A DNA stretch of 64,000 nucleotides from Corbicula japonica (lineage: Eukaryota > Mollusca > Bivalvia > Venerida > Cyrenidae): positions 2,714,501-2,778,500 of the forward strand of contig JAZAYU010000053.1 of the NCBI GenBank assembly GCA_038501625.1, written 5' to 3'. How positions within the stretch are numbered: the first letter of the stretch is position 1; each line of letters begins with the position of its first letter. A program made the position numbers and the translations under genes. Shown one piece after another: positions 10,975-46,508 of the stretch. The notes beneath the pieces were generated by a model. It worked only from the letters and a program-made list of their open reading frames with translations, made no database searches and was not told where the DNA came from.

Positions 10975-10983
10975 TGCCGACTA
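10975..10983 (+). repeat. 9-bp target site duplication, left copy (TGCCGACTA)
   Basis: TGCCGACTA lies directly outside the left TIR and is identical to 46500-46508 directly outside the right TIR. Nine bases is the usual duplication length for Mutator-like transposons. Confidence 0.85.
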
Positions 10984-11013
10984 GGTAAGCGGAAAATGGA
11001 CACCGTTAGAAGG
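10984..11013 (+). repeat. Left TIR of the giant element, outer 30 bases
   Basis: GGTAAGCGGAAAATGGACAC followed by cgttagaagg. It matches 46499-46470 read on the minus strand without a mismatch. The TIR continues as acct at 14649-14652, on the far side of a nested insertion. Weaker similarity extends to about base 75 (tattcat and cgccc in both ends). Confidence 0.9.
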
Positions 11014-12769
11014 GGTGTCCCTAAATACCAAAAATGTGCAAAAATGTGCAAAAATGTAAAAATGTGCAAAAATGTGCAAAAATGTAGAAAAATGTGCAAA
11101 AATGTAAAAAAAGGTGGATTAATAGTAGAAAAAGGTGGTTGAATAATGGATTACATCATGGGGGGAATCCTAAAAACACTTAAATTAATAAGGTTTAGGT
11201 GAATTATGCATTTCCAGTTTGAAAAATGTGCAAAAATGTAGAAAAATGTGGGGAAAAAAATAAAAAATGTGGGTTAATATAATAAAAAGGTGTTAAATAA
11301 ATAGATTATATCATGGATGAAATACCTAGAACGCTTTTATTAAAATTTTGGTGAAATATGACTTTAATGATTTAAAATGTGCAAAAAAGTGGACAAATAT
11401 GGTAAAATTTGCCAAAGGATGTGATAGACTAATATAAAAAAAATTTGGCGTTATGGTTTAAATAATTTCATTATCAAAACTGTATAGTTATTAAGGATAA
11501 TTCCAATCTTCCAGTGTGAATAACCCACATTTTTTTCTTTTTAGTTTCTTTTTTTTCACATTTACGGTAATAAGGGATTCCGTGTAAAAAGGTGGAAAAA
11601 GTGATAGAAGGGGGTAGGAAAAATAGATAGGATTTTTTAAAGGTTTGCTATGCGGATCATAACTTACCATTGAATAGTTTACAGCGATATTTCTCAGTAG
11701 CTAATTCCATAATTACAGCAATTTCTAATGAATATTATTAACCTATTAGAAATAGTCCCTCCTGCTTTCTCACTCGGGACTTGGGACCCGACGTTGGCGC
11801 AGTTACCTATTTTATTTATTTTTTTGGTATTTTTTGTTTTTAGTGTTTTTTTCCAAAGAAAGAAGCCAAAAACAAAACAAACTCACTAACTGCTTTTCAG
11901 TTCATATCAAAATTGAAAGTTTTTTTAATGCAGCAGTTATAAACTTAAAACTCTCCTTAAGAGGAAAGCCTTTAAAGATGGAAATGTTGTGCCAAATTAA
12001 GTCATTGCCAATCCAATGACTCTTCGTCTTTGGAAATTATTTCTGCACGTCATTTCTTGCTAAAAACTCTTTTGTCAATAGGGAAACGGCACTGTTTGTT
12101 GTTGGGAACTGTAGTTTAGGGGAATGGGAGAGGTCCGACCACATTTTACCGTTACATGTAGAATAGCGAAGGTTAAACAAGATATAAAACGTATACTTGT
12201 ATTTCTATACATTTGGGCTGAAAAGGAAGGGCAGATAAATGATCATATAATATAGTCGAGTTTGAACAGGCTCCCTTTATGTGGTTATGAGCAAAGTGCA
12301 CGATGTATTCTCGTGCAACAAGATAAAGCAATCTGACAAAATTTAGCTTTCAATCTTCGATGTGTTTGAATTTAATTGATTTTACAAATATCTTCAACAG
12401 CCGCATATTAATAATATCAGTTCACAGTTTTCAGTAATCAATCCCATTTATCTATTTATATTGGTATGTGTTAATTCATACCTTTGTGTAATAAACTACT
12501 TGACAATGAACATAAAAAACTTTCGTTTTAAAAATTTGATTTGATTTGAATTGTCTTCCATTCTGTAACAATAATCTTAATACTAGCCGCTAATTTACTT
12601 CAGTTCACACTTCTGTGATGTAAAAGACTAAAGCCTTTACATGTCGTACTTGTTTTTTTTCTTCAGTTGCGCAGTAAATCAATAATACTTTAAAAAATTT
12701 AATTTTCTTGAGAAAATCTTTATTGTATTCATGGCATCTCTATACAGGATATTTAGGCCTAATCAAAGA

Positions 12770-13567
12770 AGTTCATGTGAGTATGCCCTAATCTATTATG
12801 TGCATATTCGCATAGTTAACGAACATGTTGCATGTATATCATTCGATGTATTTTGATTTATAATGATTGTTTTTCACTTTTTGGTATCAAATAATTATAT
12901 TTGTTTTTCACTTTTTGGTATCAAATAATTATATTTTAATTACCTTATCCACATTTTTACCATCTTTTACCACGATTATATTCACGACTATGCCCTAATC
13001 TATTATGTGCATATTCGCATAGTTTACGAACATGTTGCATGTTAATTATACCAATTATTCGATGTATTTTGATTTATAATGATTGTTTTTTTACTTTTTG
13101 GTATAAAATAATGATCTTTTATTACCTTTTTCCCAATTTTACCACCTTTTTCCACGATCATATTCACGAGTATGCCCTAATCTATTATTTTCATATTCGA
13201 ATAGTTTACCGAACATGTTGCATGTATATTATACATATTATTCAATGTATTTTGATTTATAATGATTGTTTTTCACATTTTGATATTAAAATATTATCTT
13301 TGATTACCTTTTTCCAAATTTTTACCATTTTTTTTCCCAAGATTATATTCACGAATATGCTAATCTATTACTTTCATATTCGAATAGTTTACCGAACATG
13401 TTGCGTATATAATAAACTTATTATTCGATGTATTGCGATTTATAATCATTCTTTTTGACTTTTTTGTATCGGATATTTATCTTTTTACCAGCTTTTCCAC
13501 ATTTTTATCACCTTTTTCCACGAATATGTTCACGAGTATGCCCAAATCTATTATGTGCATATTCGCA
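12770..13567. repeat. Tandem repeat of about 183 bp, 4-5 copies
   Basis: The landmark tatgccctaatctatta recurs at about 12783, 12989, 13171, 13355 and 13537, followed each time by cgaacatgttgcatg, ttcgatgtattttgattta and a ccacctttttccac block. The last copy is interrupted by the element at 13576-14427 and resumes at 14428. The 139-residue frame across it is low-complexity and not a gene. Confidence 0.85.
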
Positions 13568-13575
13568 TATTTTAC

Positions 13576-14427
13576 GGTTGTGGGTAAAACCCTGACCAGA
13601 CCCAGACCCAGACCAGACCCCGGAAACTAACGATTAGGTACGGAAATCTCCGCTCGTTTCCGACAATCGTCTAAACCAATTACTGTGACTACAGAGATAT
13701 AAGTTTTTTTCTATTTTGTGGGAAATTATAAAAGCTCAGGATTAGACATTCTACATGGGCGCATAAGATTTTTTTTTATTAAATTGAGAATTGCCTTTTG
13801 GGGGTTAAAGCAAAATAAATTATAAGACACGAACTATTGTCATTTAGATCTGTGATTGTATTAATTTTATAATCGATTAGGTACGCAATTTAATTCTGTG
13901 AAATTCTTTAATTTTAAGTCAAAAATATAAATTAAAAAAAAATATAGAAAATAATATCATTGTTTGTTAGTAGTGTGTATTTATTGATTTAAGAAGCGAA
14001 ATATGATTATTATGCCGACTTGTCTTTAAATGCTTTGAAAATTATTGTCTGGTGTGATAATGTTTTCAAAATACTTTTTTTCATTACTAATGATGAAAGT
14101 ATTTGGCGCAAATTGCAATAAACAGAATATTTACCAGAGCTTTCTCATATATACACCGAGTTCTGTCGAGCAAATTATGATTATGGAGATTGTTAAGCAG
14201 TCTGTGTTCAGTTAATTCTAAAATTTATTATTTAATATTTCTGGCAATGAAAAGAATTATGATTAGGAAATGATATAAAGCATCAAAAACACGAACCGCT
14301 AAATTAGCAAACATGTCGTTATTGATTTGTAATGTATTGTCGGAAACGAGCGAAGATTTCCGTGCCTGATCGTTAGTTTCCGGGGTCTGGTCTGGGTCTG
14401 GGTCTGGTCAGGGTTTTACCCACAACC
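13576..14427. mobile_element. Innermost nested element, 852 bp, 88-bp TIRs, 8-bp duplication
   Basis: It begins ggttgtgggtaaaaccctga and ends tcagggttttacccacaacc. The inverted repeats (13576-13664 and 14340-14427) agree over about 88 bases with roughly three differences, and include runs of agaccc and a ggaaactaacgat block. TATTTTAC is duplicated on both sides (13568-13575 and 14428-14435). An 8-bp duplication is typical of hAT (also of P-type) elements. The interior is AT-rich and non-coding, so it is a MITE-like passenger. Confidence 0.88.
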
Positions 14428-14638
14428 TATTTTACCGAACATGTTGAACGTAAAATATACCTTTTATTCGATGCATTTTGATTTAAAATCATTGTTTTTC
14501 ACTATTTTGTATCAAATATTTAATTTTTAACCACCTTTTTCCACATTTTTACCAGATTTTTTTACATTTTTGCACATTTTTCTACATTTTTGCACATTTT
14601 AGTACATTTTTGCACATTTACGGTATTTAGGGACTCCG

Positions 14639-14718
14639 CGTTAGAAGGACCTTATAATTATTCATGAGGTTTTATGACACGCCCCTTCACATCGGAATGC
14701 TTCGGATGCAGTTTCAAC
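14639..14718 (+). promoter_or_regulatory. Inner left TIR and likely core promoter of the fusion gene
   Basis: This holds the second copy of cgttagaagg (target duplication of the nested element), the TIR continuation acct, an AT-rich TATA-like ttataattattcat, and a short 5' leader up to the ATG at 14719 (context caacATGG). MULE genes are commonly driven from the TIR. Here the start codon lies about 67 bases from the TIR edge, so promoter and leader must be compact. The 3.6-kb insertion separates this segment from the outer TIR. The promoter assignment is inference. Confidence 0.5.
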
Positions 14719-17113
14719 ATGGCGACGTCCATGCCTTGGACCGTTTACTGGAACGAAATTTCACCTTTCCAAGGTTACTGCAACGATTTAATATCAGTAA
14801 ATAATGTCAAAAAGGCGTTCGAAGTGTACGCGTCTACCACGTTCGTGAGTGGTAAACAAGAGAAAGATTTTGGGAAAGATATTAGTAAGTTTAACTCTAT
14901 CGCAAGTAACGTAATTTCGTTGTCTGCTAAATGGAATATGTTGATTTGTTGATCTTTTTATGCGTGTATGCTCAGATGCATTTTGTTTGTCTTCATTTAA
15001 AATAACGTCCTCAGCAGACACTCAATGACACATTCATCAAGATTAAAAGCTGATGGAAAGAAAAAAATAATTAAATCTAGTTAATAATAAATTAATATCC
15101 ATTTCAATGCTCCCGCTAGAGCCAACACTTTTTATTGTTGCGAAAAAGCTTTTAAAACCTCAACTGTAATGAAATTTAAAACACTGCACAACAACCATCA
15201 CACAAGATGTTATGCATGTCTTGTTATACATGTAGAGATTGAACATTTTAAACTACACAGGTGGGCATGATTTGCATGCTTTTTGCATGGGTTAGTGACC
15301 CAAAGCCAAGGACAATGGGAGATGTGTTTGGATTTTGATTTATAAAATTTGTCAGTTTTTTTTTTGGACAAAAAACGAAACTTGTTTTCTGTAGAGGGAA
15401 CATTGAAAGGGATATTCTAATTATTTTGTTTATTCATTTTCACCATAAATTAAAATAAATATGTTCAACTCGTAACTGACCATTACAGCATAACAAGTCT
15501 AATAACAGTTTCTTCCAGAAACGATGAATAAGAATAAAACATAGTAGAAATATGAAAATGTGTTATTAAAAAAAGTGTCTTTTCAGCCATCTTCAAGCAG
15601 AGTAGAATTCGATTTCAAGACATTGGTGGGATGATCCCTTTCGATGGCACACCATTTGTTGTTATTGCAACATCCACTAAAGAGTGCATGTTCGGGAGAG
15701 ACAAGCATAGAAAGAAGAAAAATGATAAAATCATGGAAAGGGAATCTGAACTCGAGGTATTTTTTGGTTTAACAAAAATCCTGTTTTTAGTTTATGAAGA
15801 TTAATTAGGGCCACCTGCCCAATTTTTTTTTTCAATACATGTCTAATTTGCTTTTGCACGATATCCTACTCACTGCGGGATACCGTATCCCGGATATTGC
15901 TCGATTTAATGAGGAGTTCCATCACATTTCGCGACTGTAAACGGAGAACACAGGTAAGTTTAGCGCCTATATTTTCCAACTACTTGCTATTTCATTGATT
16001 TCAATTGGTTTGAAATGTTTTCCGGTAGTATTTGTACCTCTGGAAGACATCACAGCAGAACAGGTTTTTGTCAAAATGATTAAATTACCCCTTAACGATC
16101 GGCTGCTCACTCGAAAATATTGACCTCGATGACTAAATAATCATCAGAAATGATTATATAACTAAAAACAAAAAAATGAATCAAGCATTTTTTCTCTTCT
16201 TAGCCCAAGTATGTTTAGTCCAAATTTCAAGGAAAAAGAATGAAACCCCAAAAAGATACAGACCCAAAAAGAAACAAAAAAGTGTACCGAGTATTGATTT
16301 TTAGTGTACCAAGTGTTGCTCATTAGCTCATTTTTAGTGTAAAATCGAGCAATATATGGGATACGGTATCCCGCAGTGCTACTTATCTCTTCATATGAAA
16401 TTTAAAAATAATACATCCTTATAATAGGCCTTCAAGTGTTTGTCACTACACCAACTGACATGGTTAAATAATCTCACTAGAACTGACTTATATATGTGTT
16501 TGAAAACCAGTTTCATAACTCCTTAAATCAACCAATCACCCACTCATTTGACATTGGTACTTTCAAAAAGAACACTTCCACATTCCCTCGCATAGACTCT
16601 ATTTTTCCGTCCTGCCATACATTTCCCAAAACACAAACACAAAACAAAAATGTATATCCAAGTGGCCTAGCATGAGAAAGTTTTTGATTACATGTCTTGT
16701 TATTGCTTTAAAATATAATTATAGATGTTCATGGCAGTTGCAAAATCTCCATTTTTTACCTTTGTAGATTCTAATGAAATTTAGTCAGTTGTTAAATACA
16801 TACCCAAGGTGTATGAAAATGAAATTAAAAAGAAATGATATGATGCTTTTTGAAGTTTTATCAGGTCACCTCTTGAACGAAATATAAACCTTCTGAATAT
16901 TTCATTTTTCATTACATTTATTATGATAGTTCAGCAGCTTTCAAAAAAGCATAAAAATGTCTTATGTTAAATGTATATGATAAATGTTTTCTCCAATTCA
17001 AGTCTGACCATCCAAGACCTAAGCGTCACAGAGACAGTCTTCAAACCACCCGGAAAAAAGGCTGTGTTGCGAAGATCGTGATAAAAGAGGTCTTAAGATT
17101 GACTGAATTCAAG
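14719..17113 (+). CDS. Fusion gene exons 1-3: N-terminal part
   Basis: Exons 14719-14884, 15587-15756 and 17003-17113. The first ATG in good context gives MATSMPWTVYWNEISPF. Exon 2 contains FQDIGGMIPFDGTPF and a Lys-rich KHRKKKNDK run. Exon 3 contains the basic RPKRHRDSLQTTRKKGC segment and AKIVIKEVLRL. The Cys- and Lys-rich 'KKGC.AKI' pattern resembles the DNA-binding segment that precedes MULE cores in FAR1-like and CARF-like proteins. That similarity is from memory and moderate. Intron 2 holds a MITE (15871-16378), and intron 3 holds the 87-bp minisatellite. Confidence 0.75.
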
Positions 17114-20100
17114 GTAATAGGCAATTTCATCCCAAAACCTTTGCAGTATTTTATGTTTTCAAGTGAAAAATGTTTCTTAGTTCTTGTAAATTATGCCAGA
17201 AATGTAAAAGTATAGTTCTTGAATATGCTTTTTAGTAAAAATATTTATTAAGTTACAATCTGAAGGCAAATAGTTATTTTTCTAAAAAGAACTTTAATGC
17301 TATTGGATAAGTCAAGCATACAAAATGACTACTAAAGATAGCATTAAATTATAATTGTTAATGATAAATTTCAGCCATTTGGGCCTGCAAGCCAGACAAT
17401 TAGCAATTAGTTATTTAAACTAATTAGTTATTTGGCAAAGGATCTGGTATAATCAATGACAGTTGTTTTAAAATTGATAAGTGCAAACATAAATTGTAAG
17501 TAAGTTGCAGACAAAGGGCCTTGTTAAAATATAAGTTTGCATTTTCAGAATTGCCATGTATAATCCTTCTAAATGATAAGTTACTGACATTAGGCAATGC
17601 CAAAAGTCATCGGGCACATTTGATGTAACATTCACACTCTAAAAATGGTAATTGTAAATGATTACTTAATTGCTGGTAGACATAGGGCCTTGCTGGGAGG
17701 CCAATGGTCACTTGTAGAAGGACCAAGTAGGTAAGCAGAAAATGGATCAAGTGTACCCAATAAATGGTTTGTTAGGTTAAAGACTGGGCTATGCTGGGAG
17801 GATAATTGGCACTTATCAAAGGACCAAGCATTCTCAATAAATGGTTTGTGTATATGATAGGTTACATACATAGGGCCTTAGTAGGAGGACATTGGGCACA
17901 TCAAGAAGGACCAAGTGTACGCAATAAATGGTTTGTGTATATGATAGGTTACATACATAGGGCCTTAGTAAGAGGACAATGAGCACTTGTAGAAGGACCA
18001 AGTGTACCCAATAAATGGTTTGTGTATATGATAGGTTACAGACATAGGACCTTAGTAGGAGGACATTGGGCACATGTAGAAGGACCAAGCATTCTCAATC
18101 AATGGTTAGTGTATATGATAGGTTACAGACATAGGGCCTTAGTAGGAGGACAATGGGCACTTGTAGAAGGACCAAGTGTACGCAATAAATGGTTAGTGTA
18201 TATGATAGGTTACAGACATAGGACCTTAGTAGGAGGACAATGGGCACTTGTAGAAGGACCAAGTGTACGCAATAAATGGTTAGTGTATATGATAGGTTAC
18301 AGACATAGGACCTTAGTAGGAGGACAATGGGCACATGTAGAAGGACCAAGTGTACGCAATAAATGGTTTGTGTATATGATAGGTTACAGACATAGGACCT
18401 TAGTAGAAGGACAATGGGCACTTGTAGAAGGACCAAGTGTACCCAATAAATGGTTAGTGTATATGATAGGTTACAGACATAGGACCTTAGTAGGAGGACA
18501 ATGGGCACTTGTAGAAGGACCAAGTGTACGCAATAAATGGTTTGTGTATATGATAGGTTACAGACATAGGACCTTAGTAGGAGGACAATGGGCACTTGTA
18601 GAAGGACCAAGTGTACCCAATAAATGGTTTGTGTATATGATAGGTTACAGACATAGGACCTTAGTAGGAGGACAATGGGCACTTGTAGAAGGACCAAGCA
18701 TTCTCAATCAATGGTTAGTGTATATGATAGGTTACGTACATAGGGCCTTAGTAGGAGGACAATGGGCACTTGTAGAAGAACCAAGTGTACCCAATAAATG
18801 GTTAGTGTATATAATAGGTTACAGACATAGGACCTTAGTAGGAGGACAATGGGCACTTGTAGAAGGACCAAGTGTACCCAATAAATGGTTTGTGTATATG
18901 ATAGGTTACAGACATAGGACCTAAGTAGGAGGACAATGGGCACTTGTAGAAGGACCAAGTGTACCCAATAAATGGTTTGTGTATATGATAGGTTACAGAC
19001 ATAGGACCTTACTGGGAGGACAATGGGCACATGTAGAAGGACCAAGTGTACGCAATAAATGGTTTGTGTATATGATAGGTTACAGACATAGGACCTGAGT
19101 AGGAGGACAATGGGCACATGTAGAAGGACCAAGTGTACCCAATAAATGGTTAGTGTATATGATAGGTTACATACAAAGGGCCTTAGTAGGAGGACAATGG
19201 GCACATGTAGAAGGACCAAGTGTACGCAATAAATGGTTTGTGTATATGATAGGTTAGAGACATAGGACCTTAGTAGGAGGACAATGGGCACTTGTAGTAG
19301 GACCAAGTGTACCCAATAAATGGTTTGTGTATATGATAGGTTACAGACATAGGACCTAAGTAGCAGGACAATGGGCACTTGTAGAAGGACCAAGTGTACC
19401 CAATAAATGGTTTGTGTATATGATAGGTTACAGACATAGGACCTTAGTAGGAGGACAATGGGCACTTGTAGAAGGACCAAGCATTCTCAATAAATGGTTT
19501 GTGTATATGATAGGTTACAGACATAGGACCTTAGTAGGAGGACAATGGGCACTTGTAGAAGGACCAAGTGTACCCAATAAATGGTTTGTGTAAATGAAAG
19601 GTTACAGACATAGGACCTTAGTAGCAGGACAATGGGCACTTGTAGAAGGACCAAGTGTACCCAATAAATGGTTTGTGTATATGATAGGTTACAGACATAG
19701 GACCTTAGTAGGAGGACAATGGGCACATGTAGAAGGACCAAGTGTACCCAATAAATGGTTTGTGTATATGATAGGTTACAGACATAGGACCTTAGTAGGA
19801 GGACAATGGGCACATGTATAAGGACCAAGTGTACCCAATAAATGGTTAGTGTCTATGATAGGTTACAGACATAGGACCTTAGTAGGAGGACAATGGGCAC
19901 ATGTAGAAGGACCAAGTGTACCCAATAAATGGTTTGTGTATATGATAGGTTACAGACATGGGACCTTAATAGGAGGACAATGGGCACTTGTAGAAGGTCC
20001 AAGCATTCTCAATAAATGGTTTGTGTATATGATAGGTTACAGACATAGGACCTTAGTAGGAGGACAATTGACACTTGTAGAAGGACCAAGTGTACGCAAT

Positions 20101-23100
20101 AAATGGTTTGTGTATATGATAGGTTACAGACATAGGACCTTAGTAGGAGGACAATGGGCACTTGTAGAAGGACCAAGTGTACCCAATAAATGGTTTGTGT
20201 ATATGATAGGTTACAGACATAGGACCTTAGTAGGAGGACAATGGGCACTTGTAGAAGGACCAAGCATTCTCAATCAATGGTTAGTGTATATGATAGGTTA
20301 CGTACATAGGGCCTTAGTAGGAGGACAATGGGCACTTGTAGAAGAACCAAGTGTACCCAATAAATGGTTAGTGTATATAATAGGTTACAGACATAGGACC
20401 TTAGTAGGAGGACAATGGGCACTTGTAGAAGGACCAAGTGTACCCAATAAATGGTTTGTGTATATGATAGGTTACAGACATAGGACCTAAGTAGGAGGAC
20501 AATGGGCACTTGTAGAAGGACCAAGTGTACCCAATAAATGGTTTGTGTATATGATAGGTTACAGACATAGGACCTTACTGGGAGGACAATGGGCACATGT
20601 AGAAGGACCAAGTGTACGCAATAAATGGTTTGTGTATATGATAGGTTACAGACATAGGACCTGAGTAGGAGGACAATGGGCACTTGTAGAAGGACCAAGT
20701 GTACCAAATAAATGGTAAGTGTATATGATAGGTTACATACATAGGGTCTTACTGGGAGGCCATTGGGCACATGTAGAAGGACCAAGTGTTCCCAATAAAT
20801 GGTTAATGTATATGATAGGTTACATACATAGGGCCTTACTGGGAGGCCATTGGGCACTTGTAGAAGAACCAAGTGTTCGCAATATATGTTTAGTGTATAT
20901 GATAGGTTACAGACTTGAAGGGAGAACAATGGGCACTTGTAGATGGACCAAGTGTACCCAATAAATGGTTAGTGTGCATTATAAGCTACAGACTTAGGGC
21001 CTGCTGGGCAGACAATGGGCACTTGTAGAAGGACCAAGTGTACCCAATAAATGGTTAGTGTGCGTTATAGGCTACAGACTTAGGGCCTGCTGGTCGGACA
21101 ATGGGCACTTGTAGAAGGACCAAGTGTACCTAATAAATGGTTAGTGTGCGTTATAGGCTACAGACTTAGGGCCTGCTGGTCGGACAATGGGCACTTGTAG
21201 AAGTACCAAGTGTACCCAATAAATGGTTAGTGTGCGTTATAGGCTACAGACTTAGGGCCTGCTGGTCGGACAATGGGCACTTGTAGAAGGACCAAGTGTA
21301 CCCAATAAATGGTTAGTGTGCGTTATAGGCTACAGACTTAGGGCCTGCTGGTCGGACAATGGGCACTTGTAGAAGGACCAAGTGTACCTAATAAATGGTT
21401 AGTGTGCGTTATAGGCTACAGACTTAGGGCCTGCTGGTCGGACAATGGGCACTTGTAGAAGTACCAAGTGTACCCAATAAATGGTTAGTGTGCGTTATAG
21501 GCTACAGACTTAGGGCCTGCTGGTCGGACAATGGGCACTTGTAGAAGGACCAAGTGTACCCAATAAATGGTTAGTGTGCGTTATAGGCTACAGACTTAGG
21601 GCCTGCTGGTCGGACAATGGGCACTTGTAGAAGGACCAAGTGTACCCAATAAATGGTTAGTGTATATGGTATATGATAGGTTACAGACATTTGGTCATAT
21701 TAGGAGGACAATGAGCAAGTGTGGAAAGACAAGGTATACCCAATCAATGAAAATATTAATCAAATAGTGTTTACAATAGGTTACAGCTTAGTTCCAGAAA
21801 TACTATAAATTCTCAATGTTAAATTTGAAAAAAAGTGATTTCAGTTGCAGGCCATGGGCCTGGCTAGAATGAAATAGGGCATTCCGTGGAGCACCAGGTT
21901 TACCCAATTAATTGTTAATTTTACAGGATACATCACAAACACAGCTCTGCTTGAAGGGCCAATAGTGGTTTCTTTCTATAAATTCTTTGACAAGTAATTG
22001 GGGACATTTATCAGACTATGTTGAGAGTCTCATGTTATACATTTTAAATGTTGCAGGCCAGTAAAAACACAGAAAAAATGAGAAAGAAGATAAGCAAAGA
22101 AGTCAGAGAACGTTTAGACAAGAGTGAAAATCATTTGACAGAGCGCAGGTTTTATGTTAGCCTCCCTGAAGGGAGCTCACACACTAATCACTCTGTGTCA
22201 GCAGTAAGTTATTCAAAGTCTTGAAACAAAAACAGTCTTAAATAAATTTCTATAGTCACTTATTGCAATAGACTTGTATTAATTGTTTAATTTGAAGGAT
22301 CATGGTAGAAATCCAGTTTCAAACGAAGCCCCTTAGTTGACTTGCTCTTGTTTAAAACTCTCATTTCAAAGGAGAATAAATCAAAACAGATATAACTTTG
22401 TTAATACAGATGACTTATAACAAGTATTGTGTGAAAAGAATGTTTTTTCTCCCAAGTTATAAGGAATTAATTTTCAGGTAAAAGTAAATTAAAACTATAA
22501 AAGGTCAATCAGGCGTTATCATTCTTGTTTTCACAGTTGGCTTCATGCAGATGAAGTATTAAATTAATAGGACAAGTACTATAAAAGTTGAAGGCAACAT
22601 TAAGTTCCATATTAAAGTCATGTGAAAGGGAATTACTCGCAGGCAATACAAAAACCAATAAGATACATGTAATAATTATGTGCTATTATATTAATTTCAG
22701 GTTACAGGTTTATTGAAACCTTTGAACAAAGAAGTCAGAGAAAAAGTTATGGAACTTGTGACTCTTGGAGTCACAAGTGTGTCAGAGATGAAACGACACT
22801 TAAATATATTTGTCCATCAGTTATTCCCAGAAAACTGCCCCCCATTGACTGACATGGGCTACTTTCCTGCCGATGACACGATAAGAAAGCACATATATAT
22901 GTGTCAGAAAAGATTGAGGTAACTTATTATTGGTTTCTAAGGCTCCAATGTTAACTAATTTTTGTAAACGTTTACACGGACCACAAAATTCAAAATGATC
23001 CTTGTGTTTATATTATACAGACCTTCTGGCAATGTTTCAAGTGTCACTGATCCTTGTAAGTTGTAAATAACAATGCAAGTTTATTATAACACGATCTTTT

Positions 23101-35100: not shown

Positions 35101-38100
35101 TGGCATTTCTTCCTACATAGGGTAGTACTATAGTAGCTAATTATATTGTCAGTAGTCTTTGTTCATTATCTTGTTGCCATGCTAGTGGTGGCACCTGCAA
35201 GGTCAGGTAATTATGATGATCAACTGATGCTAAACATATATTTGGAAAAAAAACTTTACAGGTCTACAACCTCTACTAAAGAGGCTGTAATAGTGAAAAT
35301 TAATGATACATTATTATAAAATTTATACTGTTTTAAATAGGTGTTCAGAATTCAACACGTACAGAAGCCATTTCTTTGGCACACAGAAATATACAGGTAA
35401 AAGAACTTCTATGTAGTAAAAAAAATCCGAAAATACAGAGCAGGTGAAAATCATGCTTTATAAATAAGATTAATATTGACCAAAATAATATTATTTCTGA
35501 TGGCATTTCTTTAGCAGCTTCAATGCTTCATTGTCATTAACCATTTATTGGGTACACTTGGTCCTTCTACAAGTGCTTCATTGTTAAAACACTAGAACTA
35601 GTTTTATTTGCTTTTACTTTATTTAATTAATCATTTCAAATGTAATTCCTTTGACAATAATTGTGATTTTTAATTAAATATCAAATACATGTAATGTTGT
35701 GTACTGTGAGGTGAGTATTAATACATTTATACTGTTTTCAGTTACATGCAGCAGCTGTGGGACAGCGACTATTAACAGCGAGACATTCAACTCACTGTCC
35801 CTCTCACTTACCAATGTAAATATTTTCTTATACCTTTTTACTTAATTGTAAAATCAATATTCATGTACACTTTACTCCTGTAAATATTACCATATTTATT
35901 ATACAGTAAATTAGAGTTCACAAATTTTTGTCAAAATGAGCTTGTTAAGTGCAATATTAGCAATCCAGAGTTAAAGGGATCAAATCCCATCTTTGAAACT
36001 TCGGAGATACTTCCCCCAACACACATTCTTTTGCATGACACATCAAACTGAAGTCCTTTTAATCAGTGCTATACACCAGCATGTTCAACAATTAAAATCT
36101 TAAGTTCAAGAACTTAAGTCTAAATAGTAGGCATGTAAAAGCCCGGATTCTCTTGTATCCTATCTTCTCACCCAAGGGTGGCTATGTGTAACATTAGGTT
36201 TCACATGGGCACTTAAAAAGCCATTCCAAGCTTCCAAGCTGTACTTATAAAATCTGGATTAAATTTAAAATGAAAGCAGTTCCTAAGATTAGTTTGGAAC
36301 TGTTACAAAAATTTTAGAGAAACAGGTGTTAGGTATAGTAATGTGTTGAACTGTTTTATTTGTTTCAGACACTGACCATTCATCAAGCTGTTGATCATTT
36401 CTTCAGTTCACAGTCAGTCAAGAGATACAAATGTAAAGGGTTGGTATTATTTTAAGTTTACGTTGAAGAAAGTCTTGTCTTGAAAAATCTGTCACCAAGA
36501 GTGAACTGTTTTTGTGGGAAAGAGATTCTGCCAAGAATTTTCCATCTTAACGGAATTTATCATTTCAAAATATTTTTCCTTGCAAATCTATTATTGTTAA
36601 TACCATTTTGTAAACCCTTTTAAATTTTGTTTTCATACACTGAAACTTTGACCATTAACATACCTTATTTCCTAAAAGATGTTACTAACTCAACTAAATG
36701 ATATCAAACACCTAATGATCTGACGTCGATATTGTAAGCACGCGAACATTGTTTTTTTTCCTAGGAAAAAGAAAGGAATTTCTTTCCCCATTAAAACACG
36801 CAGAAACAATTGCCTAGTATGCAAGAAAAATATTGCTTAAGCAAAAGCCAAGAGACATAAGCAATGATGCATACATTAATAGTGTTAATGGATGGACAAA
36901 TGAAACCTCATCTTGCTTTTTCTACAGTTCATTTACTTTGCTCTGGAAAGAAAGTGTAGAATACAATATATATATAAAGCATGTCTACATTGTACATTAT
37001 AACTTTTCCATCACACTAATATTGGCAGTGGCTTAGTAGTGTAAAAAGCTCTTTCTTCGCATGACTTGTCACTAAATACTATTCATTTGTTTCAGATGCA
37101 AGATAACTGGGGATGCAGAAATCAAAAATTGCTTGGTCAGCATTCCTAAAAATGTTGCTTTCCACCTTAAAAGGTATATAAAAAATTTCACCATTATAAA
37201 GATTTGCATTAGCAGAAAGCAACAGTCTTTTACTCACATGATTTAGCTTATATACATGTCTATTAATCCATAGCATAGTTTCTGTTATGATGGACATAAA
37301 ATATACATGTATATGGTGTGACATCTTTGGCATTGCCGTACATTGGATGTCATATTAATGATTATATGATCCTTTGTTGTGTTTCCCTCAAAAAATAACT
37401 AGCAAACAACATCAATAAATTTGCTATTCAAATCATTAATTACCCACTCAATAAAGAAATGGAGACTTGATTTATTTGATTACTTTTATTATTAATAGTT
37501 TAAACAACAGCTATAACTTTATTTGTGACAGCTGTTTATTATACAATTACAGTGAAACCTGTGTAAAAGACCACCTGTGATAATATACCACAACTCTTTT
37601 GATTGTTTATTTTGTATTCCCTAAAGTAGAATTTTATTGAATATAAACCTTGATAAAAAGACAACCTGTATTAAAATGCCACATTTTGCCTCCCTTGGTT
37701 GGTCATTTTAGACAGGTTGCATTCTACTTGTAGTGATGAGCAGTTGAAAATGCTAATATTCATTGTATATTCTACATGTTAAGGTTTTCAAACACTGGCA
37801 ACAAAGACTCAAGAAAATTGAAAATCATAGAAGAGTTACATCTTAGGCCTTACGTGTGTGCCAACAAAAAAGAAGTAAGTACTGACTGCTATTAAATTTA
37901 ACTAATGTTTTTATGGCACTTAACCATCAGAACAAAGGTTGCCTTGATAATCTGAGGACAGCCAGTAGCTAACTTGCAGATGACCTTTTAACCATCCAAT
38001 GGCCACTTTGACATTTGAAATTAACAGTATACTTGTATTATTTGCTAAAGCGGGAATGCTGAAGATTGATATTGCATTAATTCTAGTAAACTGGAAGATG

Positions 38101-39302
38101 TTAGTAAAGAAACTGTTGTATGAAAACATAAATCAATATCCTGGTTTGTTTATTCCGTATAACAATGTCTATCAATACATTGTTGGTGTGAACATTTTTG
38201 GACACATATATTAATTAAGTTGCTGTGTTTCATAGCTCTTGTAATTGTATTTGCCAAAACTAACTACCTGTATAAATGTTTGCTATGGTTTTGAATGGAA
38301 ACAATTACAGTGCTTCTTTCATAACATTCATGCAGCATTTGTAGTTCTTGTTAACTATCTATTTTTTATACCTTCCCAGCTGTTGGAGGATAAAGCCGAC
38401 ATGTATGGAGCAATCATGCATCGGGGCACAAAAATAAACAGGGGGCATTTTTTTGCCATCGTAAGACATAGGATGCAGTGGTATAAAGTTGATGATATGA
38501 AGGTATGTTTCATTACATTTCCTGTGTAAGTTGTAAAAGTACATTTTTGTGGATGTTCGAGTTCATTTTATACAGATTGTGACCTAATTTATCTAATTCA
38601 GCTGGGATCATTCCTGTGGGTTTCCTATTTATATTTTTATTAACAATGGCATTCTCTCCATCTGTGTTTTTGTCATGCAAAAGCTCCATGACTACTCCTT
38701 GCAGATTAATACCTTGATGGATTTAATTTGGTTGATATTTCTATATATATGAGCCAGTCTCTGACAAAATTACACTTGTTTGATTTTACATATAGCTGGA
38801 TGCTTTGTCCCCACTATCCATCTGTCATCAAATGACAATAATATTAATTTAAATGACAACAGTCCTGTAGTTATCATTAAAATAAGTTTTAATCTTCATG
38901 AGAAGTTAGCAGATTTCATTTTAATCATAATGGAATTATTATATATTTACAGATTATGGGATGTAAACCAATATTTTTTAGTGTGGCCTAAAGGTTATTT
39001 TTCAGAGACCAATGCTTATTTAAATGAGAAAAATATTAGATTACAACTTTGCCTGTTGACATGTTGCTAAATTATTAATTATATCCCCAACCATTTTCAT
39101 GACTTTAATAACTATTCAAGGTTGGTTTTATTTGGTTTTCACCAGGATGTTGAAATTTATGAAAATAAGAGGAAGCTTTAACTTTACCTTTAACTTTATA
39201 TTTATGCAGATCACTCGAATGACAAGGGATGTTGCGCTAAAAGAAATGGAGGACAGTTATATACTCTTCTACCGGACAAGGCCAAGGCCATACATAAATT
39301 AA
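14719..39302 (+). CDS. MULE transposase-SWIM-USP fusion protein (24 exons, about 1534 aa)
   Basis: The predicted single gene of the giant element. Exons 1-24 join with consistent phases from ATG 14719 to TAA 39302, with no stop or frameshift. Order of parts: residues about 1-349 CARF/ALS2CR8-like, 350-600 MULE DDE core, 661-675 SWIM finger, 849-1100 seven 36-residue repeats, 1247-1534 USP peptidase. The family-based expectation is that the transposase cuts the element ends as a nuclear DDE enzyme, SWIM and the N-terminal part assist DNA or protein binding, and the USP removes ubiquitin from the transposase itself or from host factors. All introns are GT-AG except one GC-AG. It could alternatively be a domesticated host gene, but the TIRs and target duplication around it argue for an active transposon gene. 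Exon limits come from splice signals and homology, not transcripts. Confidence 0.85.
15871..16378. mobile_element. 508-bp MITE with CACTG ends and 5-bp duplication
   Basis: Ends cactgcgggataccgtatcc and ggatacggtatcccgcagtg are inverted repeats of about 35 bases (continuing attgctcgattt). CTACT is duplicated at 15866-15870 and 16379-16383. A 5-bp duplication with CAC termini recalls the Transib group, but no transposase is present, so the class is tentative. It sits in intron 2 of the fusion gene. Confidence 0.8.
17670..21750 (+). repeat. Minisatellite family 2 (87/86-bp units, about 47 copies) in intron 3
   Basis: The main unit runs tatatgataggttacagaca, taggaccttagtaggagg, acaatgggcacttgtagaag, gaccaagtgtacccaataaa, tggtttgtg. 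The period is 87 up to about 20960, then 86 with a gtgcgttataggctacagac variant up to 21665. Because 87 is divisible by 3 and the unit lacks stops, frames of up to 300 residues appear on the plus strand and 258 on the minus strand; neither is a gene. The core acaatgggcac...tagaaggacc resembles the TIR (18 of 22 positions). An early unit at 17729-17746 keeps aggtaagcagaaaatgga, the TIR tip with one change. Confidence 0.95.
22057..23808 (+). CDS. Fusion gene exons 4-6: CARF/ALS2CR8-like region
   Basis: Exons 22057-22203, 22701-22918 and 23572-23808 encode residues about 150-349. Recognisable stretches are LNKEVREKVMELV, VTSVSEMKRHLNIFV, FPADDTIRKHIY and the LDQENLLEYISQW segment with NPDDRF. 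This pattern (a helical segment, an 'R.H...FV' block, 'P....IR.H.Y', then 'DQENL') is what I recall from vertebrate calcium-responsive transcription factor and its invertebrate relatives. An acidic linker (EQDDDDE) leads into the transposase. Phase 2 ends of exons 5 and 6 each complete an Arg codon in the next exon. Confidence 0.75.
24286..26002 (+). CDS. Fusion gene exons 7-9: MULE transposase core
   Basis: Exons 24286-24554, 25281-25522 and 25830-26002 encode residues about 350-578. LLDATYRTTKYALPLFFLAV gives the first catalytic Asp (about D359). QFMTDYCEREINAI gives the second (about D425). YICDFHREQCWTRW is the CxxH motif placed after the second Asp in MULE cores (C446, H449). NTNNGLERQNKVFKY carries the likely catalytic Glu (about E541), the position of the 'NN..E..N' motif shared with IS256. 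All three acidic residues are present, so catalytic competence is plausible. The RNase H-like fold is split by two introns. Confidence 0.9.
28289..30419 (+). CDS. Fusion gene exons 10-11: SWIM zinc finger and repeat tract
   Basis: Exon 10 (28289-28463) encodes a linker with YNVHVPDYLRNRP. Exon 11 (29003-30419, 1417 bp, by far the longest) opens with SYSVSIKGENGMPHCQCHYW and MCKHMPCKHMFAVF. That is a SWIM finger, CxC-x9-CxH (C661, C663, C673, H675), normally placed just after the MULE core. An acidic/Ser-rich stretch, a Lys/Arg-rich stretch (KDRKLKKLNLRNRQKKR) and then the 36-residue repeats follow. Reading through the donor at 30419 would stop at 30427, so intron retention would give a transposase without the USP domain. 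Confidence 0.85.
28559..28815 (+). mobile_element. tRNA-Pro-derived SINE in intron 10
   Basis: The head at 28559-28632 retains a D-arm region with A box tagtggttaagg, an anticodon stem-loop tccgc-attggga-gcggg that would present TGG (Pro), and a B box ggttcgaatcc. The acceptor stem is only partly paired, so it is not a functional tRNA. The unrelated body continues with gtgagccgctagctag and ttaaaaggataggattt. It is read as a SINE because of this body and the location inside an intron. Confidence 0.7.
29639..30394 (+). repeat. Seven 108-bp coding repeats (36 residues each) in exon 11
   Basis: Exactly 7 x 108 bp, starting at 29639, 29747, 29855, 29963, 30071, 30179 and 30287. Each encodes RKHTNE(V/D/G)DISKPKK followed by QVRQNPENVQCHP(S/P)DE and GLTNQK. 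Units differ only at the seventh residue and one Pro/Ser position, with nearly all synonymous sites identical, so the expansion is recent or homogenised. The repeats are basic, hydrophilic and probably disordered, and link the transposase half to the deubiquitinase half. Confidence 0.97.
30872..32767 (+). CDS. Fusion gene exons 12-14: linker before the USP domain
   Basis: Exons 30872-31099, 31541-31642 and 32684-32767. They encode about 138 residues without a recognised domain. Landmarks are LTLDHVAETGYAVISNM, LYSLRRLAPSSMSEGAKLRL, a helical KRRREEMANAMKDLAAAASA (possible coiled coil) and a basic KQKSKPTSQRHVTFAVRHK tail. Phases 1-1-1 match the flanking exons exactly, which is the main evidence for these exons. 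Confidence 0.7.
33416..39302 (+). CDS. Fusion gene exons 15-24: USP-type deubiquitinase domain
   Basis: Exons 33416-33532, 34239-34322, 34880-34958, 35341-35396, 35742-35815, 36369-36439, 37096-37173, 37784-37874, 38380-38502 and 39210-39302. The Cys box GLRNFANNCFANSLLQCL (C1261) departs from the usual G-N-T-C by A-N-N-C but keeps the Asn and Cys. LGTQQDSFEMYQIMLQALD is the QQDA-like box. VTCSSCG and YKCKGCK are the two zinc CxxC pairs. NVAFHLKRF precedes the His box. RGHFFAIVRH gives the catalytic His (H1486), WYKVDD the third residue (D1501/1502), and SYILFYRTR closes the domain. The peptidase is complete at about 285 residues, near the compact end for the family, and is expected to be active. 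Confidence 0.92.
34420..34705. repeat. Two tandem copies of a dispersed repeat in intron 16
   Basis: Two copies about 145-165 bp apart share gacaatgctttcacctatgg, ctcaaatttggtaggga and gtttgtcatc, with 'agacccctat' following. The sequence belongs to a repeat type I recall from bivalve genomes. There is no coding potential. Confidence 0.7.
35537..35575 (-). repeat. Solitary inverted family-2 minisatellite unit in intron 18
   Basis: The sequence ttaaccatttattgggtaca, then cttggtccttctacaagtg is the reverse complement of the family-2 core, essentially identical over about 36 bases, but single and in the opposite direction to the array at 17670-21750. Confidence 0.85.
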
Positions 39303-41564: not shown

Positions 41565-44500
41565 CTAGAAGTGTCCCTATGGCCTTGTAAAGGTGTTCTT
41601 AATATTTACATATAAAACACTTCGAAAGGTACCACGCGTTTGCAAAGATAGTGTCTAAAAATGTATCCTTATATTAAAGTCAGGTCTACAAGAGGTGCTC
41701 CTACGACCTTCTGAAGGTGAACTGTGTGCGCAATAATAGTATCTGAGAAGATATCCTATATTAATACCAGGTCTGCTAGAGGTGTCCCTATGACCTTCTA
41801 AAAGTGTCCTTTGTTCGCAATGATAGAATTATAGTGTCTAAGTAGATATGCTCATATCAATACCAGGTCTGCTAGAGTTGCCTCCTACGACCTTATAAAG
41901 GTGAACTGTGTGAGCAATGATAGTATCTGAGAAGATATCCAATATTTATACCAGGTCTGCTAGGTGTCCCTACGTGTCCTTTGTTCGCAACGATAGTGTC
42001 TGAGTAGATATGCTCATATCAATACCAGGTCTGTTAGAGATGCCTCCTACGACCTTCTAAAGATGTCCATTTGTCCACAATGAGAGTGTCCGAGTAGATA
42101 TGCTTATATTTATACCAGATCTGCCAGAGGTGTCCCTGTGACCTTCTCAATGTGCACTTTGTCGCGATAATAGTGCTTGTATAGATATGGTTTATTAATA
42201 ACAGGTCTGCTAGAAATGTCCCTACGACCATTCAAGATTTAATTTGTTCGCAATGATAGTGCTTTAGTAGATATGGTTTATTAATACCAGGTCTGATAGA
42301 GATGTCCCTACGACCATTCAAGGTGTCCAGTGTCTATGATAGTTTCTGAGAGGAAGCTTGCTTTTATTTTTATAGAGAACCTATTAATACCCGGCCTGCT
42401 AGAGGAGTCCGTATAGCCGTAAGGTATACTGTTTAGTCGCGATGATAGTATCTGAAGAGATACTTCATTAACATGCATGTAGCCTGCTACCGGTGTCTCA
42501 AGTGTAAATTGAAATATATTACCTAACGAGATTCTCATATACCTTTATTAATCGTGCTTGACACAGGCCTTTGTCTTTCTAAAGGTTACTTGTGATCGCT
42601 ATGGTATTGTCTAAAGAGACAAGTAAAATTACATATTCAGGCCTGCTAGAGGTGTGCCTAGGTCCTTCTAAAGGTGTCCCAAGTTCAAAATATCACTATT
42701 TAAAGAGATATCTCATTTAACTATATCAATCGTGCTAGAAGTTTGCATTTTTCTTTCTTATGCTGTCTTGTGAACGCACTTGTATTGCAGAGGAAAATAA
42801 ATAACATACATAAGTCCTTCAAGAGGTGTGCCTAGGTCCTTCTAAAGGTGTCCCGTGTGTCTGAGATGTCTTTTAACTATGGCTATGTCTGCTAGATCTT
42901 CTATGTGTGTCTTTGTCCTTTTCAAGGTATCCTGAGGTGATAAAGCGAATGTAATGACTGCTAGAGTACAACAATCATATACCCTTCTAGAGCAGTACCT
43001 ATGTACTTCAATAAGTTCTCCATGATGCCAGGCCTACAAACCCTTCGAAAGGGTGTTAAAATATTAGTATCAGGAAAGAAACGTGTAATAGTTAGTCTGA
43101 AAGATGTGTCGGTATGACGTGCTGGAGGTGTACTTTTTACGCAATGTAATTCTCTAAACAAAATACTTCATTAACATTTTATGGCCTGAAAAAGGTGTAC
43201 CTAGCTTCATATAAACGTGTCGAGATGTACTTATCGGCAGAGATACCTCTGTTAGATATGCTTATATTAATACCAGGTCAGCTAGAGGTGTCCCTACGAA
43301 GTTCTAAGGGTGACCTTTGTTTGCATTGATAGTTTCTGAGAAGATGTGCTTATTTTAATATCAGGACCGCTAAAGGTGCCCCTACGACCTTCTAAAGGTG
43401 TCCTTTGTTCGCAATAATACTGTCTGATATTATATGCTTATATTAATACCAGGACCGCTAAAGGTGCCCCTACGACCTTCTCAAGGTGTCCTTTGTTTGC
43501 AATAATAGTGTCTAAACATATGTTATGCTTATATTAATACAAGGTCTGCTAGCGGTGTCCCTACGACTTTCTAAAGGTGTACTAAGTTCGCAATGATAAT
43601 GTCTGATATTATATGCTTATATTAATACCAGGACCGCTAAAGGTGCCCCTACGACGTTCTAAAAGTGACCATTGTTCGCAATCATAGTGTCTGAAGTTAT
43701 TTTCTTACATTCATACCAGGACTGCTAGCGGTGTCCCTACGACCTTCTAAAGATGTCCTTTGTTCGCAATGATAGTGTCTGATATTATATGCTTATATTA
43801 ATACCAGGACCGCTAAAGGTGCCCCTACGACCTTCTAAAAGTGTCCATTGTTCGCAATCAAAGTGTCTGAAGTTATATTCTTACATTAATACCAGGACTG
43901 CTAGCGGTGTCCAATACGACCTTCTAAAGGTGTACTAAGTTCGCAATGAAAGTGTCAGATGTTATATTCTTATATTAATACCAGGACTGCAAGAGGTGTC
44001 CCTACGACCTTCTAAAGGTGTACTAAGTTCGCAATGATAGTGTCAGATGTTATATTCTTATATTAATACCAGGACCGCTAAAGGTGCCCCTACGACCTTC
44101 TAAAGGTGTCCTTTGTTCGCAATAATAGTGTCTAAATATGTATTATGCTTATATTGATACCAGGACCGCTAAAGGTGCCCCTACGACCTTCTAAAGGTGT
44201 CCTTTGTTCGCAATGAAAGTGTCTGATGTTATATTTTTATATAAATACCAGGACCGCTAAAGGTGCCCCTACGACCTTCTAAAGGTGTCCTTTGTTCGCA
44301 ATGATAGTGTCTGAAGTCATATTCTTACATTAATACCAGGACTGCTAGCGGTGTCCCTTCGACCTTCTAAAGGTGTCCTTTGTTCGCAATAATAGTGTCT
44401 AAATATATATTATGCTTTTATTGAAACCAGGACCGCTAAAGGTGCCCCTACGACCTTCTAAAGGTGTCCTTTGTTCGCAATGAAAGTGTCTGATGTTATA

Positions 44501-46099
44501 TTCTTATATTAATACCAGGACCGCTAAAGGTGCCCCTACGACCTTCTAAAGTTGTCCATTGTTCGCAATGATAGTGTCTGATGTTATAATCTTAAATTAA
44601 TACCAGGACCGCTAAAGGTGCCCCTACGACCTTCTAAAGGTGTCCTTTGTTCGCAATAATAGTGTCTGAAGTTATATTCTTACATTAATACTAGGACTGC
44701 TAGCGGTGTCCCTACGACCTTCTAAAGGTGTCCTTTGTTCGCAATAATAGTGTCTGAAGTTATATTCTTACATTAATACTAGGACTGTTAGCGGTGTCCC
44801 TACGACCTTCTAAAGGTGTCCTTTGTTCGCAATAATAGTGTCTAAATATATATTATGCTTATATTCATACCAGGACCGCTAAAGGTGCCCCTACGACCTT
44901 CTAAAGGTGTACTTTGTTCGCAATGATATTGTCTGATATTATATGTTATATTAATACCAGGACCGCTAAAGGTGCCCCTACGACCTTCTAAAGTTGTCCA
45001 TTGTTCGCAATGATAGTGTCTGATGTTTTATTCTTAAATTAATACCAGGACCGCTAAAGGTGCCCCTACGACCTTCTAAAGGTGTACTAAGTTCGCAATG
45101 AAAGTGTCTGATGTTATATTCTTATATTAATACCAGGACCGCTAAAGGTGCCCCTACGACCTTCTAAAGTTGTCCATTGTTCGCAATGATAGTGTCTGAT
45201 GTTATATTCTTAAATTAATTCCAGGACCGCTAAAGGTGCCCCTACGACCTTCTTAAGGTGTCCTTTGTTCGCAATAATATTGTCTAAATATTTATTATGC
45301 TTATATTAATTCCAGGACCGCTAAAGGTGCCCCTACGACCTTCTTAAGGTGTCCTTTGTTCGCAATAATAGTGTCTAAATATATATTATGCTTATATTAA
45401 TACCAGGACCGCTAAAGGTGCCCCTACGACCTTCTAAAGGTGTCCTTTGTTCGCAATGAAAGTGTCTGATGTTATATTCTTATATTAATATCAGGACCGC
45501 TAAAGGTGCCCCTACGACCTTCTAAAGTTGTCCATTGTTCGCAATGATAGTGTCTGATATTATATTCTTAAATTAATTCCAGGACCGCTAAAGGTGCACC
45601 TACGACCTTTTTAAGGTGTCCTTTGTTCGCAATAATAGTGTCTAAATATTTATTATGCTTATATTAATTCCAGGACCGCTAAAGGTGCCCCTACGACCTT
45701 CTTAAGGTGTCCTTTGTTCGCAATAATAGTGTCTAAATATATATTATGCTTATATTAATACCAGGACCGCTAAAGGTGCCCCTACGACCTTCTAAAGGTG
45801 TCCATTGTTCGCAATAATAGTGTCTAAATATATATTATGCTTATATTGATACCAGGACCGCTAAAGGTGCCCCTACGACCTTCTAAAGGTGTACTTTGTT
45901 CGCAAGGATAGTCTCTGATGTTATATTCTTAAATTAATACCAGGACCGCTAAAGGTGCCCCTACGACCTTCTAAAGGTGTACTATGTTCGCAATGATAGT
46001 GTCGGATGCTTTATTCTTATATTAATACCAGGACTGCTAGATGTATCCCTACGACCTTCTAAAGGTGTCCTTTGTTCGCAATAATACTGTCTGATATTA
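41565..46099 (-). repeat. Minisatellite family 3 (88-bp units, about 50 copies), right subterminal
   Basis: On the plus strand the unit reads ccaggaccgctaaaggtgcc, cctacgaccttctaaaggtg, tcctttgttcgcaatgatag, tgtctgatgttatattctta, tattaata. Units at 41565-43250 are strongly diverged; those at 43260-46080, next to the right TIR, are homogeneous, with a few subtypes (ctaaatatatattatgc, ctgctagcggtgtcc). The reverse complement contains aatggacacctttagaagg, matching TIR aatggacaccgttagaagg except at one base. The array therefore carries TIR-like cores in right-TIR orientation. Confidence 0.93.
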
Positions 46100-46154
46100 G
46101 GCAGGGGTTAGTCCTATGATCGCAATAATGTTGTTTTAAGATATAAATAATACA

Positions 46155-46487
46155 TTACTCAATTATTAAGTCATTTATTTCACCTGCACTGTTACTTGGT
46201 AGTCTATTTGAATAATGTATACATTTTTCAGTTCTTATTGTTTTTGTGATATATTGGACTGCATTTTTGTTATTTGTCATGTATAATTTACTTTCAATTA
46301 TTCGCTTACATGTACAGTTACCCTGAAGTTTAGGGTTTACATTGATTGTTGTTTTCGTCATTTCAACGAGATACAAGTTCTTTCCAGTATGCAGCCAGCT
46401 AAAAATAACTGTGCTAAGGCGGAGCGCAATAATGTGGGCGGGCCTACGATATATGAATATTAAGTAGGTCCTTCTAACGGTGTCCAT
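46155..46487 (-). CDS. Possible short ORF starting inside the right TIR (110 aa)
   Basis: The frame opens with MDTVRRTYLIFIY, of which the first residues are encoded by the TIR itself, and runs to NDLIIE. It has no recognised domain and no signal of coding beyond being open. Its position, reading inward from the TIR opposite the transposase promoter, is where a second MULE gene would start. It may equally be chance, given the AT-rich sequence. Confidence 0.2.
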   Translation of the reverse strand: MDTVRRTYLIFIYRRPAHIIALRLSTVIFSWLHTGKNLYLVEMTKTTINVNPKLQGNCTCKRIIESKLYMTNNKNAVQYITKTIRTEKCIHYSNRLPSNSAGEINDLIIE

Positions 46488-46499
46488 TTTCCGCTTACC
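46466..46499 (-). repeat. Right TIR of the giant element, uninterrupted
   Basis: Read on the minus strand from 46499 it is GGTAAGCGGAAAATGGACAC, cgttagaaggacct, identical to the left TIR over 34 bases. Because it lacks the nested insertion, it serves as the internal control for the empty site at 11004-11013. Confidence 0.92.
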
Positions 46500-46508
46500 T
46501 GCCGACTA
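46500..46508 (+). repeat. 9-bp target site duplication, right copy (TGCCGACTA)
   Basis: Identical to 10975-10983. The predicted pre-insertion host sequence therefore joins ...ccccatccg, one TGCCGACTA, and tgccacgaaaag. Confidence 0.85.

Follow-up and report, generated by a model that had tools for sequence, protein, structure and literature searches.

A giant Mutator-like transposon in Corbicula japonica with a predicted transposase-protease fusion gene and mirrored arrays of end-like sites

The DNA analysed here (henceforth called the window) is a stretch of 64,000 nucleotides, C53:2714501-2778500 of the Corbicula japonica assembly (1.07 Gb; 1,630 contigs), in which positions 10984 to 46499 are occupied by a Mutator-like element (MULE) with terminal inverted repeats (TIRs), a predicted gene joining a DDE transposase to a ubiquitin-specific protease (USP), and two arrays of TIR-like sites. 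The contigs labelled C8, C12, C16, C31, C113, C119, C211, C496, C726, C822, and C1604 belong to the same assembly as the window, and genome counts for repeats and large families are lower bounds. A preliminary description of this DNA had proposed an apparently complete giant MULE with a perfect 9-bp target-site duplication, perfect 34-bp TIRs, and one 24-exon gene. The duplication was confirmed: TGCCGACTA directly adjoins both element ends (10975..10983 and 46500..46508, exact match), and no further copy was found in the window on either strand. Target-site duplications of Mutator elements measure 8-11 bp, mostly 9. For the TIRs, sequence comparison within the window yielded 30 contiguous matching bases (to position 11013 on the left), and the full 34 bp were obtained only when a younger nested repeat element of 3,626 bp (11013..14638) was skipped. 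The left TIR (plus strand) is accordingly split into an outer part (10984..11012) and an inner part (14639..14652), whereas the right TIR (46466..46499, minus strand) is uninterrupted. With a per-base match probability of 0.273, taken from the window composition, the chance for one given pair of places is about 8e-6 for the 9-bp identity and about 1e-17 for the 30-bp inverted match. The nested element is flanked by a 9-bp duplication of its own (CGTTAGAAG, 11004-11012 and 14639-14647, the latter copy forming the start of the inner left TIR part), is absent from the left ends at C12, C16, C726, and C31, and has an end that was found again elsewhere in the genome. It contains AAAAATGTGC repeats and, at 13576-13667 and 14336-14427, a 97% inverted pair that may mark yet another insertion within it. 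After subtraction of the nested element and its duplication (35,516 - 3,626 - 9), the net length of the element is 31,881 bp.

The gene between the TIRs was predicted with a gene finder, using codon log-odds trained on seed open reading frames (ORFs) of the window and generic splice weights, and was then curated by hand. The resulting model (14674..39302, plus strand) has 26 exons and encodes 1,555 amino acids (aa) free of in-frame stops; the predicted exon number changed from 24 to 26. Exons 1-6 are located at 14674-14884, 15587-15756, 17003-17113, 21704-21733, 22057-22203, and 22701-22918; exons 7-12 at 23021-23055, 23553-23808, 24286-24554, 25281-25522, 25830-26002, and 28289-28463; exons 13-17 at 29003-30419, 30872-31099, 31541-31642, 32684-32767, and 33416-33532; exons 18-22 at 34239-34322 (GC donor), 34880-34958, 35153-35206, 35387-35396, and 36369-36439; and exons 23-26 at 37096-37173, 37784-37874, 38380-38502, and 39210-39302. 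The least certain exons are the three very short ones of 30, 35, and 10 bases. Early finder models that placed exons in the first array or split the MULE and SWIM exons were ruled out by phase and Pfam matches.

Four regions were recognised in the predicted protein, all encoded on the plus strand. An ALS2CR8-type region (aa 75-294; 15587..22918; Pfam PF15299, E 7e-30), predicted to bind DNA, is followed by the MULE DDE catalytic core (24286..26002; PF10551, E 3e-12) with D402, D468, C489/H492, and E584, by which the previously proposed MULE transposase was verified; PF21056 (ZSWIM1-3 RNase H-like) also matched the spliced model (E 1.7e-9). A SWIM-type CxC...CxH region (29003..29137) matched the Pfam SWIM model weakly (E 0.14). 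The C-terminus is formed by a full USP domain with Cys box, QQD motif, and His box (33416..39302; PF00443, E 2.3e-33, profile positions 2-254 of 254). In single unspliced ORFs, ALS2CR8 and MULE scored above the Pfam curated cut-offs, and the Cys box (3.4e-4) and His box (6.2e-5) fell just below that of UCH. The top match of the protease part in the PDB was USP36, which could be aligned at the Cys box, at the His box, and along the WY..DD stretch after it; the next were ubiquitin carboxyl-terminal hydrolases 8, 12, and 46. The spliced model thus has what defines peptidase family C19, a UCH domain complete with its Cys, His, and Asp boxes, and the Pfam scan of this model returned UCH in place of PF02902 (Ulp1/C48), for which there was no match. 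Membership in Ginger, which has a Gypsy-integrase-like DDE transposase, was rejected, as the Pfam match is to MULE and not to an integrase core; the characters of the Mutator superfamily were found in the MULE-type DDE transposase, the 9-bp duplication (in the window and in C8), and the TIRs common to several copies. Within the transposase, a tandem repeat scan revealed a 108-bp coding repeat (29638..30396; 7 copies, 98% matches) of 36-aa charged units, probably a recent expansion.

A protein search with aa 1-760 yielded 57 homologues at E <= 0.001, with named sources among molluscs, echinoderms, cnidarians, vertebrates, an insect, and a priapulid. A tree and alignment were built from 57 rows, i.e., the window protein and 56 homologues, with P0055 left out as too short. 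The catalytic residues were conserved in nearly all rows (D402 and E584 in 57/57, D468 in 53/57, C489 and H492 in 55/56 each), and the C, C of CxC and the C, H of CxH in the SWIM region were each present in all 57. According to precomputed Pfam lines, 11 of the 57 homologues carry PF02902 (Ulp1/C48) and one carries PF00443; when eight homologues were rescanned, P0027 was also above the C48 cut-off and P0016 below it. As nearly all relatives with an annotated protease carry Ulp1 there, the protease slot of these transposases seems open to exchange. The sole carrier of PF00443 is P0022 of the scallop Argopecten irradians, in which ALS2CR8, MULE, and UCH are combined in one protein in the same order as in the window model. 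The alignment of P0022 with the window model comprises aa 205-849 and aa 1126-1462, the latter stretch (26%, E 1.6e-28) covering the pre-USP region and most of the USP, in which the P0022 gene model stops. In the tree, the window protein grouped with Saccostrea P0001 and Pinctada P0002 (100/98), and this trio was placed within a clade of eight together with five echinoderm proteins, three of them bearing Ulp1 (100/100). A protein search with the linker and USP returned five UCH proteins, none with a transposase domain, which says little about absence because the scallop P0022 was missed as well; a search with the SWIM exon alone gave no match, probably owing to query length limits.

The scallop protein also bears on whether transposase and USP belong together at all. 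The TIRs could enclose two adjacent genes, one for each, or the USP could be a captured host fragment of no use. Ordinary introns lie between the exons before 33416 and the USP exons, and the fusion depends on phase-consistent splicing in the model, which leaves room for two genes. This explanation is nevertheless judged quite unlikely, as the independent scallop model joins both parts with a homologous stretch between them, and as the window protein matches the UCH profile over its whole length and can be aligned with USP36 at the Cys box, at the His box, and in the WY..DD stretch.

Sites resembling the element ends are concentrated in two tandem arrays, identified with Tandem Repeats Finder. 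Array 1 (17797..21749, plus strand; 87 bp x 45.5) falls in an intron of the gene model and carries 44 TIR-like sites in left-TIR orientation, and array 2 (43256..46099, minus strand; 88 bp x 32) carries 35 in right-TIR orientation; a motif search located seven further sites between 41580 and 42932 (minus strand), all in right-TIR orientation. The consensus units contain AATGGGCACTTGTAGAAGGACC where the TIR has AATGGACACCGTTAGAAGGACC, and on the other strand TCTAAAGGTGTCCTTTGTTCGC where it has TCTAACGGTGTCCATTTTCCGC; units U1 and U2 scored 18 and 17 against the TIR, values reached by none of 2000 shuffles of either unit. With up to 5 mismatches to the inner TIR motif GGACACCGTTAGAAGGACC, the element has 47 plus sites, confined to its first 10.7 kb, and 43 minus sites, confined to the last 5 kb. 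Every site was oriented as the nearer end, with zero exceptions, and there were no sites in the gene body (22000-39302) or in 28.5 kb of flank, while 200 permuted motifs gave a mean of 0.23 and a maximum of 3 sites in the element. After subtraction of one TIR on each side and of the plus site at 14633, which is the TIR remnant past the nested insert, 45 plus and 42 minus sites (87 in total) remained beyond the TIRs. The element thus has subterminal arrays of TIR-like sites oriented with the nearer end, as predicted binding sites. Beyond the TIRs, 42 plus and 47 minus sites were counted in the copy on C12, 12 plus and 8 minus in that on C726, 9 minus and 1 plus at the right end on C496, and 6 minus, irregularly spaced, in the diverged copy on C8 (permuted mean 0.07). 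Further sites were thereby present at four of five right ends read for at least 8 kb (window, C12, C496, C8, and C113) and at three of five such left ends (window, C12, C726, C16:8300144, and C31). An inverted fragment of an array-1 unit was also observed at 35527-35576, inside a USP intron of the model.

Two other functions of the arrays have to be weighed. They could act as brakes or decoys, the extra sites titrating transposase or trapping it in dead-end complexes; about 87 sites stand against two ends, and in piggyBat a subterminal site is reported to be suppressive (PMC11707139). The gene-poor copies on C12 and C726, however, kept array sites, which would be needless for a brake, although hitch-hiking would give the same result, and a braking role is considered possible but doubtful. 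Less probable still is that the arrays do not serve end synapsis but are bound in an anti-silencing or chromatin role of the element's protein, on the model of the Arabidopsis VANDALs. VANC targets are tandem repeats in non-coding or intron sequence of VANDALs, and VANC proteins have tandem peptide motifs (PMC5735166), to which the position of array 1 in a model intron and the seven 36-aa repeats of the window protein correspond. The motif of the window element, by contrast, matches the TIR and obeys end polarity (<= 5 mismatches), a better fit to transposase binding, and no VANC-like gene turned up, though none was searched for by name.

The genome was searched for a 30-bp end with up to 3 mismatches, and 15 sites were obtained (7 forward, 8 reverse), two of which are those of the window; a reversed control pattern in the same search gave none. 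End sites were typed by the sequence following the end, which assigned eight to the left type (window, C12 twice, C16 three times, C726, and C31) and six to the right type (window, C12, C113, C496, C822, and C8), while that on C119 was of neither type. A copy at C8:7387367-7395903 (8,537 bp) has both ends, which are diverged, and a perfect 9-bp duplication of its own, TTTTTAATC, at a different site. The preliminary description had expected TIR-bounded copies with ends 20-40 kb apart and 9-bp duplications; multiple end sites and a second duplication were indeed recovered, but the C8 copy spans 8.5 kb and not 20-40 kb. At C12:10834136-10851116, a copy of about 17 kb has kept both ends and both arrays and lost most of the gene: nothing in it aligns with the window between about 21.6 and 38.4 kb, and the nested insert is likewise without counterpart. 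Over 14.65-17.4 kb of the window, this copy is 99.6% identical in non-exon sequence (2,258 bases) and 99.8% identical in exon sequence (492 bases), and from this near-identity the MULE family was active recently. Its left end (C12:10851028-10851116) is doubled with a 59-bp tandem period (50 bp of end plus 9 bp), as might result from the landing of one end inside another or from slippage of one over the other. A second gene-poor copy on C726 lacks window span 22.4-37.2 kb and has inserts of about 4.3 and 5.8 kb; its right end is outside the stretch read. Three candidates were ruled out as full copies: C496 holds 405 bp of right end (89.6%) and diverged array-like stretches, along with three USP exons at about 90 kb, C113 holds 48 bp only, and C31 holds 103 bp only. 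At the C822 end site, the sequence runs off the contig.

Searched against its own genome, the transposase gave at least 61 matches, consisting of the window exons, one close copy on C211, and others mostly at 30-55% identity. The C211 copy is about 94% identical in DNA over window positions 24163-26179 and has about 2.2 kb inserted. For the linker and USP, at least 20 matches were obtained, among them partial sets on C12, C726, and C496 (89193-90745) and one weak match in C166. As side observations, a more distant MULE relative (30-50% aa) is located at C53:2815307-2820546, about 37-42 kb past the right edge of the window, and C692 (10083-15809 and 65707-70688) has two MULE-relative copies about 55 kb apart that share the same large SWIM exon (336-aa frame). 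On the window itself, minisatellites with a period of about 85 bp, as judged from BLAST row spacing, were seen in the left flank of the insertion site (4963-7242 and 9829-10618), and several related inverted repeats with arms up to about 149 nt, perhaps resembling miniature inverted-repeat transposable elements, in the right flank (54428-63938).

The insertion is a real, apparently complete giant MULE, in line with the preliminary description, given the ends, the exact duplication, and the other copies at other sites. Since its duplication and ends are exact, a recent insertion of the window copy is plausible. A fixed, domesticated host gene lying between old TIRs would agree with the single intact whole-gene copy found in the assembly; set against this are the exact duplication and ends, the near-identical copy on C12, and the second duplication-bounded copy on C8, and in view of the copies elsewhere and of this second duplication the idea was rejected as very improbable. 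Our preferred reading is that of a Mutator-superfamily transposon, 31.9 kb net, that carries a predicted 26-exon gene fusing a DDE transposase and a USP, would be helped by the TIR-like arrays, and likely moves by cut-and-paste, to which we assign a probability of roughly 0.78.

Several observations weigh against this reading. The exon chain is partly hand-chosen and a prediction only: the Cys-box exon (33416-33532) was kept by the finder at penalties of -3 and -3.5, dropped at -4 and -4.5 (end fixed at 39302), and retained by hand. The window protein and P0022 do not group in the tree, so that the USP need not go back to a single capture; the domain could have been gained twice, passed from one lineage to another, or been lost from or overlooked in many gene models. 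Not every member of the family has the arrays, because no sites beyond the TIR were present at C16:8300144 (diverged left end, 11.4 kb), C31 (left end, 8.7 kb), and C113 (right end, 19 kb), and with 6 mismatches allowed, four sites on both strands appeared in the gene body and one outside the element. Tandem arrays can, moreover, grow by slippage without being of any use. No target duplication was detected for the C12 copy at either of its two left ends. The empty allele that the preliminary description had envisaged, with the flanks joined through a single TGCCGACTA, did not materialise: the joined flanks matched the two flanks of the window and two contigs with the left flank only, and yielded no clean empty site in the assembly. 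Over window positions 7936-10967, C1604 shows 99.8% identity, and 16 bases before the element it continues into a different repeat; it thus probably represents the second haplotype, carrying another insertion, and is uninformative on the empty site. Among the matches obtained, the full linker-USP set was seen in the window only, and the C211 copy has decayed: each of the three exons read contains stops, and the second has lost its frame. Because of these two observations, the family may be near its end.

If the preferred reading holds, transposition could proceed as follows. A MULE DDE transposase cuts at the TIRs and joins the ends to a staggered target of about 9 bp. The ALS2CR8-like N-terminus is predicted to read the GGACACCGTTAGAAGGACC motif in ends and arrays, and the arrays, with more than 40 extra sites of the same polarity per side, would load many transposase molecules, raise their local concentration, and help to pair ends 32 kb apart. 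The C-terminal USP might deubiquitinate the transposase itself or host proteins of the transposition complex, which would keep a long-lived complex or its repair from being cut short by the proteasome. Put more boldly, and only tentatively, the giant MULE may have solved a length problem, with mirrored landing arrays that bridge 32 kb, a built-in USP that shields the complex from the proteasome, and a modular protease slot filled by Ulp1 in some lineages and by USP in at least the scallop and the genome studied here; were this true, these elements would generally need to interfere with ubiquitin or SUMO. Deubiquitinases or Ulp1 proteases occur in unrelated transposons (Helitron, Ginger, Mutator, Crypton, and plant MULE); within the transposase family described here, which has either Ulp1 or USP at one position, the two could be exchanged and set side by side in a single assay. 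The mirrored arrays likewise permit a direct test of how a transposon of at least 30 kb brings its ends together. An element of this size would escape any search for paired ends that stops at about 20 kb.

Earlier publications describe Mutator elements with Ulp1 and other transposons with deubiquitinases (PMC2836005, PMC9741609), while a USP in a MULE was not found in the literature searched. The Ulp1-bearing Mutator elements of hydra and lancelet and Ginger1, which carries Ulp1 or OTU, resemble the window element in having a DDE transposase with a C-terminal protease of a ubiquitin-like system (PMC2836005), but the protease of the window element is a USP (C19). From the Ulp1 and OTU domains, an involvement of the ubiquitin pathway in transposition was argued in the Ginger paper, which also reports a C19 domain in Trichomonas with a transposase_11 protein, not a MULE (PMC2836005). 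Helitrons with OTU or VTD domains also bear a deubiquitinase, and these enzymes have been suggested to prevent the degradation of proteins needed for transposition (PMC9741609); they differ from the window element in their deubiquitinase folds, rolling-circle mechanism, and lack of a DDE transposase. Among plant MULEs, Kaonashi/KIU carries a protease, there Ulp1 (PMC13317346), and VANDALs have tandem target motifs of VANC in non-coding element DNA, making VANC in Arabidopsis the nearest precedent found for tandem motifs read by a MULE-encoded protein; the available part of that paper contains no statement that the motifs copy element ends (PMC5735166). Both plant systems differ from the window element in being non-TIR, with separate genes and with Ulp1 instead of USP. 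Extra transposase-like sites inside the ends are shared with piggyBat and other subterminal-repeat transposons, where piggyBat has one such site (PMC11707139) and the window element about 42-45 per side, in mirrored arrangement. According to a review, no Pack-MULE in one survey exceeded 7 kb (PMC6431247). Closest in kind are the animal ALS2CR8/SWIM-type MULEs, with which the window element shares TIRs, the 9-bp duplication, and a MULE DDE core with CxxH and SWIM residues, and from which it differs in its net length of 31.9 kb, its 25 predicted introns, its mirrored TIR-like arrays, and a C-terminus that is a USP in place of Ulp1 or no annotated protease; the C-terminal USP and the mirrored arrays are what is new beyond the preliminary description.

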